DNA of 64,000 bases from Verrucomicrobiota bacterium (GTDB taxonomy: Bacteria; Verrucomicrobiota; Verrucomicrobiia; Palsa-1439), in contig PLZV01000003.1 in NCBI GenBank assembly GCA_003152315.1, positions 124,159 to 188,158 of the forward strand. Reading direction: 5' to 3'. This document shows positions 34,558-37,866 of this stretch, in pieces; position 1 is the first letter of the stretch, and each line of letters begins with the position of its first letter. The notes below the pieces were generated by a model, which was given only the letters and a program-made list of their open reading frames with translations, was not told the origin of the DNA and searched no databases. The position numbers were made by a program, and so were the translations under genes.

Positions 34558-34786
34558 AAAAGCCGACGTTCAAATTCTTCCCATTCGACCAGCGGCGGGC
34601 GGCGGCTGGGTGGTTGTACAACGCTGTAAGATACTGATCATCAATGACAATGGCTGGCTTGACGTTTGGTGAGCCGGGGATGACAATCTTACGCGGCGCC
34701 GACGCGGGCAACGGGTCACGCGCGACGCAAGACGAGGGTGCGGATGGTTTTCGAAGTACAACATCAAAGTCCAATACGCCGCCTGG

Positions 34787-35140
34787 ATGGCCACGGTGAC
34801 CCTTGCGACAGTCGTGGTCATGACGGCGGCGCACCTATGGCGGGAGTTGGACGAGCAGCAAAAGATGACCCGGCATCGCGGGGAAATCGCCGCACAAACC
34901 CTGGCCAAGTCCGTCGTTTCCGCCGTGGTGAGCAACGATATTCCCGCGATGGCGCGAGCCGTGGAATTGATCAATCCGGACCAGGAAATCCTTTTTGTCC
35001 GCATTCTCGACAGCAACGATCGTGAAATCTTCCCCAAATACCGCCAGGTGAAGCCGGAATCGCTGATCATCGTGAAGGCACCCGTGGGAAATGGGTCGAA
35101 GGCGGTGGGCACTGTGGAGTTGGGATGGGACAGGCCTTGA
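34787..35140 (+). CDS. Sensor half of a split histidine kinase (membrane segment and extracytoplasmic domain)
   Basis: 117 residues. A membrane segment (MATVTLATVVVMTAAHLW) is followed by a small extracytoplasmic domain (ALAKSVVSAVVSNDIPAMARAVELINPDQEILFVRILD) like the sensor loops of histidine kinases. The frame remains open for about 110 bases upstream, and a membrane-like stretch seems to begin there, but it has no usual start codon. The reading frame stops at the point where a second membrane helix should follow; that helix is encoded in another frame at the start of the kinase gene, which overlaps by 16 bases. This is either a natural two-protein sensor or a frameshifted single gene. Confidence 0.6.
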   Translation: MATVTLATVVVMTAAHLWRELDEQQKMTRHRGEIAAQTLAKSVVSAVVSNDIPAMARAVELINPDQEILFVRILDSNDREIFPKYRQVKPESLIIVKAPVGNGSKAVGTVELGWDRP

Positions 35141-36192
35141 CAAGCGAGGTGGTGATGCACGCGGTGTTCATGGATCTAATCCTTGGTGTGGTGGTGGTGA
35201 TCGCGGCACTGGGGGCCTCATTTCTCGCGTCGGCGCCGGTGCGGGACTCATTGAAGGAGTTGCTGGGATTCGTGAAGCGCGTGGACGCCGGAGAATCGCG
35301 CGGCGAAGAACTCGAGAGCGACCTCGCCGAGGTGAACGACGTCGGCAGATTGTTGAGCGACCTCGTTAAACGCGTCGAAGAAGCACAGGTGAAACTGGCC
35401 CGCGCACAGAAACAGTTGAAGGCGACACAGAAGGAAATGGATGAGCACACCTACGTGATCAGCCATGATTTGAAGGAGCCGCTGCGGGGGATAGAAGCGT
35501 TCAGCAAGTTTTTGGTGGACGATTACCGGGACAAATTGGATGAAGAGGGACGCCATTGCGTCGATGTGATCCGCAATGCGGCGCTACGGATGCAGCGGTT
35601 GATCAGCGATCTCCTGAAGTTCTCGCGCCTGGGTCACCAGCGAAACCCGTTTGAGACGGTCGGCCTCAACACCATGCTCATCCATGTGCGCGTGAACCTG
35701 CAGTATGCGATCGACGCGAAGAAGGTGGACCTGCGCGTGGACAAGCTGCCGACGGTCCTGTGCGATGCGACAGCGATGACGGGGGTATTCCACAATCTAA
35801 TTTCCAATGCGATCAAGTACAATGAGAACCCGCATCCGGTTGTCGAGATCGGCTGCGAGGAGAAGGAGAATCCACCGACCGGTCCGGCCGAGTACGTCGT
35901 TCATGTCCGTGACAACGGCGCGGGCATCGAGCCGGAGTATTTCGAGAAGATTTTCCAGATTTTTCAACGCTTGCAGCGCGACGACGAGGGGACGGGGATT
36001 GGATTGACCATCGTCAAGCGCGTGATAGAGTGGCCCGGTGGTCGCGTTTGGGTGGAGAGTGAGTTCGGCAAGGGCACGACGTTTTACTTCACCCTGCCGA
36101 AGCGGGGACTGAAGGAAACACAAACCGCGACCGCCATGGACGCCAGCAAGACGACAGCCAATGGACGCGCCGAACTCGCACCCACCGTTTGA
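35125..36192 (+). CDS. Membrane histidine kinase (catalytic half)
   Basis: 355 residues. One transmembrane helix (FMDLILGVVVVIAALGASFL) and a linker/HAMP-like region lead into a coiled coil, then a HisKA domain with the phosphoacceptor HDLKEPLRG (VISHDLKEPLRGIEAFSKFL). The HATPase domain has the N box (NLISNAIKYNE), DNGAGI and GTGIGLTIVKRV. It lacks its own complete sensor, which is encoded by the preceding overlapping frame. It overlaps the response regulator gene by 32 bases. Confidence 0.92.
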   Translation: MGQALTSEVVMHAVFMDLILGVVVVIAALGASFLASAPVRDSLKELLGFVKRVDAGESRGEELESDLAEVNDVGRLLSDLVKRVEEAQVKLARAQKQLKATQKEMDEHTYVISHDLKEPLRGIEAFSKFLVDDYRDKLDEEGRHCVDVIRNAALRMQRLISDLLKFSRLGHQRNPFETVGLNTMLIHVRVNLQYAIDAKKVDLRVDKLPTVLCDATAMTGVFHNLISNAIKYNENPHPVVEIGCEEKENPPTGPAEYVVHVRDNGAGIEPEYFEKIFQIFQRLQRDDEGTGIGLTIVKRVIEWPGGRVWVESEFGKGTTFYFTLPKRGLKETQTATAMDASKTTANGRAELAPTV

Positions 36193-36631
36193 TATTCTCC
36201 TGGTGGAGGACAACCCGGCCGACGTGGAGATCACGATTGAGGCCTTTCGGCGCAGTCGCAAGGGCAATCACGTCTTCGTTTGCCACGATGGCGAGGAGGC
36301 TCTGGACTTCCTCTTTCAGCGCGGGCAGTACTCCAAACCCGGCACGGCGCCGCGTCCCGACCTCATTTTACTCGACCTGAACCTGCCCAAGAAAAACGGC
36401 GTGGAAGTGCTCGAACAGGTCAAGACCGATCTGCGGATGAAAGGAATCCCCGTGGTGGTGCTCACAACCTCCGACCGCGAGGAAGACGTCGCCCGCTGCT
36501 ACAAGGTTGGCGCGAACAGTTATCTCACCAAGCCCGTACAGTTCGACGACTGCCTGAAGTTGGTCGAGGACATCCAGCAGTACTGGCTGCAGATCTCCAA
36601 GCTTCCGCCGAAGAACAATACGGCCCCATGA
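36161..36631 (+). CDS. Single-domain response regulator, Rcp1-like
   Basis: 156 residues with only a receiver domain: ILLVEDNPADVEITIEAF, the phosphoacceptor in LILLDLNLPKKNG, VVVLTTSDREEDV and YLTKPV. No output domain. It overlaps the kinase at its start and the next gene at its stop (ATGA), so it is translationally coupled to both. It is likely an intermediate in the kinase-to-phosphatase pathway encoded here. Confidence 0.92.
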   Translation: MDAPNSHPPFDILLVEDNPADVEITIEAFRRSRKGNHVFVCHDGEEALDFLFQRGQYSKPGTAPRPDLILLDLNLPKKNGVEVLEQVKTDLRMKGIPVVVLTTSDREEDVARCYKVGANSYLTKPVQFDDCLKLVEDIQQYWLQISKLPPKNNTAP

Positions 36632-37866
36632 GCGCCGCGCCCGTACCCCTGCTGGTTGTTGAGGACAGTCCGGTCTATGCGGAGATCCTGCAACGGTTGC
36701 TCCCGACGCTGGGTGCGGACCTGCAGTTCGCGTCGAAGTGGGTGGATACCGCCGAAAAGGCCATAACAGAAATCTCCCTGGCCAACTACACCCTCGTGCT
36801 TCTCGACTATAAGTTGCCTGGCGCCGACGGCATGACCGTGCTCGCCCACATTCGCAGCCTGCCGTCGGCGCGCCAGCCGGCGGTGATCATGCTAACCGGC
36901 ATGGGCAGCGAGGCTGTCGCCGTCGAAGCGATGAAGCGCGGGGCGAAAGATTACCTCCCGAAGGACTCCCTCGACGTGCCCTCGTTGTTGCGCGCGATCA
37001 CCAGCGCGCTCGAACGCAAACGGTTGGAGGAACAGATCGCCCGTTACACGAGCGAATTGCGGGAAAAGAACGCGCAGATGGAAGGCGACCTCACCATGGC
37101 GCGCGAAATCCAACAGGCCTTTCTCCCGCAACGCTACCCGACGTTTCCGCGCGACGCCATTGCGCCGGAGAGTGCGCTGCATTTCCATCACCGCTATCAC
37201 CCGACGGGCGCGGTGGGTGGAGATTTCTTCGATGTGATCCCGATTTCCGACACGGAAGCCGGCGTGCTTATTTGCGACGTCATGGGCCACGGCGTCCGCG
37301 CCGCGCTGGCGACCGCGATGGTGCGCGCGCTGGCTGACGACCTGCTGCCGGTGGCGGCGGAACCGGCCACGTTTCTGACGGAGATCAACCTCCGCTTGAT
37401 CGCCATTCTGACACAAACACGCAGCCCGATGTTTGCGTCGGCGTTCTATCTGGTGATTGATCTCGCGCGCGGCGAACTGCGTTACTCAAGCGCAGGCCAC
37501 CCCAGCCCCTTGTTGGTGCGACGCAGCGCGGGCGTGGTCGAGCCCTTGCGGTTCCCGAATAGCCGGCCCGGGCCGGCGCTCGGGGTTTTTGAGGAATCGG
37601 AGTACCCGCTTTGCCGGAGCGCGCTGGCGCGGCATGACCTGATCGTGCTCTACACGGATGGCCTCTATGAGGTGGAGGGCACCGCTGGCGAAGAGTATGG
37701 CCCGGATCGATTGCTGGCCGCGGTGCGTCAGCGGGTTGATTTGCCGGTCGAACAGCTATTCGACGAACTGCTGGCGGATATCCGACAGTACGCCGGCAAG
37801 CAGGGTTTCGTGGACGATGTCTGCATCGTCGGCGCGGAGGTCGTCCGCGTGGGATCGGCTGAATGA
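36628..37866 (+). CDS. Response regulator with PP2C/SpoIIE-type phosphatase domain (RsbU-like)
   Basis: 412 residues from the ATG that overlaps the preceding stop. The N-terminal receiver domain has LLVVEDSPVYAEIL, LVLLDYKLPGADG and MLTGMGS, with the lysine in DYLPKDS. A coiled-coil linker (MEGDLTMAREIQQAFLPQ) leads to a PP2C-like phosphatase: GAVGGDFFDVIPI, ICDVMGHGVRAALAT, YSSAGHPSPLLV, VLYTDGLYEV and FVDDVCIV. Such proteins dephosphorylate anti-sigma-factor antagonists in partner-switching systems. No such partner genes are visible nearby. Confidence 0.92.
   Translation: MSAAPVPLLVVEDSPVYAEILQRLLPTLGADLQFASKWVDTAEKAITEISLANYTLVLLDYKLPGADGMTVLAHIRSLPSARQPAVIMLTGMGSEAVAVEAMKRGAKDYLPKDSLDVPSLLRAITSALERKRLEEQIARYTSELREKNAQMEGDLTMAREIQQAFLPQRYPTFPRDAIAPESALHFHHRYHPTGAVGGDFFDVIPISDTEAGVLICDVMGHGVRAALATAMVRALADDLLPVAAEPATFLTEINLRLIAILTQTRSPMFASAFYLVIDLARGELRYSSAGHPSPLLVRRSAGVVEPLRFPNSRPGPALGVFEESEYPLCRSALARHDLIVLYTDGLYEVEGTAGEEYGPDRLLAAVRQRVDLPVEQLFDELLADIRQYAGKQGFVDDVCIVGAEVVRVGSAE

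Follow-up and report, generated by a model that had tools for sequence, protein, structure and literature searches.

A sensor histidine kinase gene of a Verrucomicrobiota draft genome interrupted by two opposite one-base frame changes, probably a very young pseudogene

The histidine kinase gene described here, located in a stretch of 64,000 nucleotides from a Verrucomicrobiota bacterium (in the following the window), is an ordinary sensor kinase that is broken in this sequence. DNA alignment with its closest relative, in the genome G002, revealed two one-base run-length differences of opposite sign, and the sensor reading frame is cut off from its own start as well as from the kinase. From the sequence comparisons given below we consider it probable that a single gene really lost its frame at these two places, and very recently, leaving a young pseudogene of a dispensable kinase. 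The host assembly (G000, with the window on contig C57) is a draft genome of 62 contigs and 4.89 Mb that is 95.8% complete. The closest named records to the gene, L038 and L039, are from Verrucomicrobia.

On the plus strand, a sensor ORF of 117 aa (34787..35140), which encodes the first membrane helix and an extracytoplasmic loop, is followed by a kinase ORF of 355 aa (35125..36192) with the second helix, a linker, HisKA and HATPase_c. ORF and domain search further identified a single-domain response regulator (36161..36631, +) and a response regulator fused to a SpoIIE-type PP2C phosphatase (36628..37866, +), the latter being the probable output of the operon. As the initial annotation had stated, the sensor and kinase ORFs lie in different frames and have 16 bases in common (35125-35140). 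Its second observation, that helix 1 begins upstream of the first possible start codon, was borne out, too: the first ATG of the sensor ORF (34787) falls inside helix 1, and the sensor frame, which extended in 5' direction reads ...WFSKYNIKVQYAAWMATVTLATVVVMTAAHLW, contains no ATG, GTG or TTG upstream of this position.

The kinase half matched the Pfam families HisKA (E 5.6e-14, 52.4 bits, cut-off 26.9) and HATPase_c (E 3.6e-24, 85.8 bits, cut-off 26.4), both above the cut-off. The phospho-accepting histidine is present in the window as well as in 75 of 76 wider kinases, the remaining one not being aligned at this site. The gene hence carries both marks of a sensor histidine kinase, HisKA with the phospho-accepting histidine and HATPase_c. 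For the sensor half the best family match was CHASE8 (PF17152; E 0.0013), which with 19.4 bits stays under the cut-off of 27. The corresponding value in G006 is 18.4 bits, likewise under the cut-off, and in G002 CHASE8 was absent from the matches at E up to 0.1. A structure model of the intact relative L038 was poor (mean pLDDT 57.9, about 70-85 in the sensor part); the 50 PDB matches listed for it were by title kinases and related signalling proteins, and no sensor fold was named among them.

A search with the kinase half in 57 genomes (own genome included, E <= 1e-50) detected a full-length orthologous kinase in 8 of the 10 other genomes of the family, namely G002, G003, G004 and G006 to G010, with a kinase identity of 58-88%. 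All eight are encoded in one open frame of 454-536 codons from stop to stop. The orthologues, whose Pfam domains were checked in G002 and G006, belong to the same kinase type (HisKA, PF00512; HATPase_c, PF02518), but they consist of one open frame whereas the window gene is interrupted twice. The single reading frame for sensor and kinase of the membrane-bound orthologues is therefore not found in the window. G005, a genome of 53% completeness, yielded no orthologue at E <= 1e-50. The sensor half was matched in seven of the eight orthologues. The exception, G010 (L018, contig C143), has a kinase with two predicted membrane helices from which the extracytoplasmic loop is gone, the sensor having been lost in frame; no separate receiver was matched between this kinase and the receiver-PP2C gene. 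The downstream order receiver, receiver-PP2C is the same in seven of the eight genomes, and in G010 only the receiver-PP2C gene was matched.

These orthologues bear directly on the readings that had been offered for the split. One was a natural two-protein sensor, in which a separate membrane sensor and a kinase would be linked by coupled translation through the 16-base overlap. The stop-start overlap and an SD-like GGAG (35116-35119) five bases before ATG 35125 are in line with it. However, relatives carrying the two genes separately were sought in the family and found in none of the eight genomes with a full-length orthologue. Moreover, the first usual start in the sensor ORF comes only in the middle of helix 1, and the start inferred below opens a different frame, which stops at 35025. 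Nor is the GGAG evidence of an evolved start, because its letters code for Val-Glu and occur likewise in G002, in front of the corresponding ATG, which there lies inside the gene. With a split that is not conserved in relatives and a sensor that has no good start, the natural two-gene sensor is largely refuted; we rejected it as very improbable. The one-frame orthologues instead support the other readings offered, sequence error or pseudogene.

The alignment with G002 (88% identity of the kinase, 87% DNA identity over 6.5 kb) locates the two differences. The first is found at 34748..34751 (+), just after ATG 34744, where the window has four T and G002 three. The second, three G compared to four in G002, lies at 35122..35124 (+), about 370 bases further on, just before ATG 35125 where the sensor meets helix 2. 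The initial annotation had proposed that a single -1 shift would restore the gene. This proposal is incomplete, as it leaves out the opposite change at the gene start. The two oddities noted there, the frame break and the missing start, thus go back to two separate changes of opposite sign, and the sensor has no start codon because of the change at the start of the gene.

ATG 34744 is probably the start codon of the gene, since it is aligned with the frame start of G002, is preceded by an SD-like GAGGG (34734..34746 including the ATG, +) and has a promoter-like site upstream. This site, TTGACG-17-GACAAT (34659..34687, +), has both hexamers identical in G002; the promoter scan as such was weak, with 2 such sites compared to 0.7 on average in shuffles. 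ATG 34680, situated at the second promoter hexamer, is unlikely to be the start codon. The frame opened by the inferred start (GTG 34738 or ATG 34744) extends over 34738..35025 (+), out of the sensor frame, and ends with TGA at 35023-35025. Within helix 1, 73 bases of the window (34764-34836) are identical with G002, which is the longest such run in the 6.5 kb and was equalled in 69 of 2000 three-base-block shuffles. Over helix 1 there is one synonymous change only in 32 codons.

Programmed frameshifting had also been suggested; it could be ribosomal or transcriptional and would join the frames. The frames do overlap, and the RNA at the junction can be folded into a hairpin, but this fold does not stand out from shuffled sequence (z -0.49; 63 of 200 shuffles did as well), and two shifts of opposite sign would be needed. 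By eye, no slippery site of the type X-XXY-YYZ was seen at the junction, and slippage is not known to occur on runs as short as these (4 T, 3 G). The compared relatives need no shift at all, with all eight full-length orthologues in one frame. Having found neither a conserved slippery site nor a stimulatory structure, we rejected this mechanism, and among the readings considered it appears the least credible.

Alternatively, the gene might be intact in the organism and the draft might miscount two short runs. We regard such a sequence or assembly error as less probable than a real frame loss, but as a serious rival to it. The two differences each alter a run by one base, with opposite sign, and lie some 370 bases apart; the coding content of the sensor is intact and under ordinary constraint, and the genome is a draft in 62 contigs. 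Against this, runs of three to four bases are easy to count, and another kinase of G000 has a two-base insertion, which is untypical of run errors.

We suspected a generally error-ridden assembly, but the compared part turned out to be mostly clean. Contigs C57 and C10 of G000 were compared with C31 and C35 of G002, and C53 and C32 with parts of C28, C22 and C24, one further gene being matched on C4; the contigs were sampled in part and do not represent whole genomes. Among the 255 matched genes, 10 were on pieces chosen for a split-looking kinase, leaving 245 untargeted. Genes were flagged where the protein match had 65% identity or more, dN/dS stayed under 0.45 and another frame contributed 15 or more extra residues; such a filter misses fast-evolving genes and short splits. 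It flagged 7 of the 255 G002 genes. Two of these, on contigs C18 and C61, are kinases that had been targeted, and three were set aside as 5'-end artefacts with a second match at or before the probable start of the stop-to-stop ORF (judged from the coordinates). Of the 245 untargeted G002 genes, 2 therefore look internally frame-split in G000, the window gene and a fast-evolving protein on C10. The C-terminal third of the latter lies in another frame in G000 (C10, about 1003-2716, compared to C35:30006-31895 of G002). With the two genomes exchanged, 6 of 258 G000 genes carried a flag; each flag lay 5' of the main match, and none was counted.

A plain ORF comparison flagged 19 ORFs out of 356 in G002 and 8 out of 355 in G000, the majority being shadow ORFs by eye. 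A flagged G002 ORF of 1398 codons was dropped, as it lies opposite plausible minus-strand genes. Counting DNA gaps not divisible by three gave a noisier picture, with 20 affected genes among 72 in G002 and 16 among 71 in G000. By eye, the majority of these gaps are paired within a few bases, close to a gene end or in a poorly aligned region, and the window gene is the clearest case of isolated gaps in this count. With 2 of 245 compared genes frame-split, errors of this kind are rare and two of them in one gene are not expected randomly. That the compared part of the assembly is mostly clean speaks against random errors hitting one gene twice.

As regards selection, the gene resembles a pseudogene in one respect, the frame interrupted relative to intact orthologues, but not in the other, relaxed selection after the interruption, as dN/dS and relative rates of the sensor are ordinary. 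The dN/dS of the sensor between window and G002 is 0.31 (124 codons); four pairs of relatives with intact sensors gave 0.18-0.43 at a dS above 1. For the kinase the value is 0.134 (receiver 0.123, receiver-PP2C 0.132), and four pairs of relatives gave 0.135-0.179, again at a dS above 1. Relative-rate counts for the sensor were 2-4 for the window and 2-7 for G002 with six outgroups and are thus not raised in the window; excluded from them are two residues in front of the frame, the Trp that follows the second change, and three residues at the tail that align wrongly with the kinase. For the kinase they were about even (10-13 for the window, 6-14 for G002, seven outgroups).

A difference emerged only at single kinase sites. 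At 116-117 sites that are invariant in the seven other orthologues, the window departs alone four times (Y to H, L to I, E to G and H to P) and G002 never. The H, G and P are found at the respective sites in none of the 76 wider kinases (at one of these sites, 72 of the 76 were aligned), while the I is common among these kinases at the fourth. This asymmetry may point to relaxation, but it is suggestive only, as four to none is not significant by itself (two-sided sign test, 0.125). Lone departures elsewhere numbered none in the window and one in G002 for the sensor (14 sites identical in the outgroups), one in each for the receiver (72 invariant sites), and one in the window and none in G002 for the receiver-PP2C protein (49 invariant sites).

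Two indels that are not accompanied by an excess of substitutions look odd for decay and suit a sequence error, which remains a serious rival because the sensor shows no relaxed selection. The frame loss, if real, would have to be very recent, since the rates are not raised in the sensor and about even in the kinase.

That the kinase can be lost is indicated by G001, a genome of the same genus, which has only a decayed remnant of it. A sensor piece (residues 21-45 in one search, 13-49 in another) is joined there to residues 229-355 of the kinase, and the frame changes once more in this remnant. Of the receiver 19 residues remain, while the receiver-PP2C gene matches over the full 412 aa at 75%. 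At this locus (L076, PLTX01000103.1) remnants of kinase and receiver thus stand next to a full-length receiver-PP2C gene, so that the output protein has outlived its kinase. From the neighbouring kinase a stretch of 346 aa is present in the G001 locus; in the 2.9 kb that precede the remnant, neither of the two genes upstream of the window kinase was matched. Since the remnant lies beside a full-length receiver-PP2C gene, the kinase is dispensable in the genus and its loss has already happened there. The histidine-kinase pseudogene of G001 and the window gene are alike in that the frame of the orthologous kinase is lost beside the same receiver-PP2C gene. They differ in the damage, which in G001 includes a large internal deletion and in the window amounts to two one-base changes that leave the coding content intact.

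G000 contains two further histidine kinases that are split between frames. One (L162, C18:62001-68000, at about 3375) has two extra bases compared to both G002 and G001, which lie within the ATPase part before the GTGLGL motif. The other (L163, C61:20001-26000, at about 2478) has one base fewer than G002, and its downstream part is still 93% identical. Altogether, 3 of about 42 kinase loci in G000 are frame-broken (44 matches, merged by eye). Inspection by eye showed no such kinase in G002 (34 matches) or G007 (33 matches), and one among about 27 loci in G001 (28 matches, two of them belonging to the remnant). Compared with 1 of about 235 other genes, for which the kinase share of the 245 was estimated and not counted, the 3 of 42 kinases give p = 0.012 in Fisher's test, a post hoc comparison of groups that were scored differently. 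One might suppose that this lineage preferentially disconnects or loses kinases by small recent frame changes, and that in the present case a sensor-less kinase is left with constitutive signalling to the PP2C output. We consider this unlikely.

Kinases whose function is distributed over two proteins, as it would be by a split in the window, are on record. As far as the accessible parts of the sources go, CheA3/CheA4 of Rhodobacter sphaeroides divides ATP binding from phosphotransfer (PMC3591291), and Hik36-Hik43 of Synechocystis is a split kinase of two Hik proteins (PMC7656254). In contrast to the Rhodobacter split, the break in the window lies between sensor and kinase and is not shared by the compared relatives. 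Neither system, as described in these parts, is a sensor/kinase split by overlapping frames. Since no split is conserved in its relatives, the window gene is not a split histidine kinase. Within the limited topics searched, no title in the literature was found to report this locus.

We take the locus as one gene, for a membrane sensor histidine kinase at the head of an operon of kinase, receiver and receiver-PP2C. If both run-length changes are real mutations, as we favour, ribosomes starting at ATG 34744 would now read 93 codons, nearly all of them out of frame, and stop at 35023-35025, so that synthesis of the sensor part from its own start would have ceased. The most that could be produced is a sensor-less kinase of 355 aa with one membrane helix, begun at ATG 35125, by internal initiation or coupling; judged from the bases around this codon, it could be translated by itself. 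Signal input would be lost, which would make the gene a young pseudogene.

The locus cautions that an apparent split sensor kinase in a draft genome can prove to be an ordinary one-piece gene with two small frame differences once relatives are compared. If the changes are real, signal input would have been lost here very recently, and another genome of the genus has already lost this kinase and the receiver but kept the output phosphatase.
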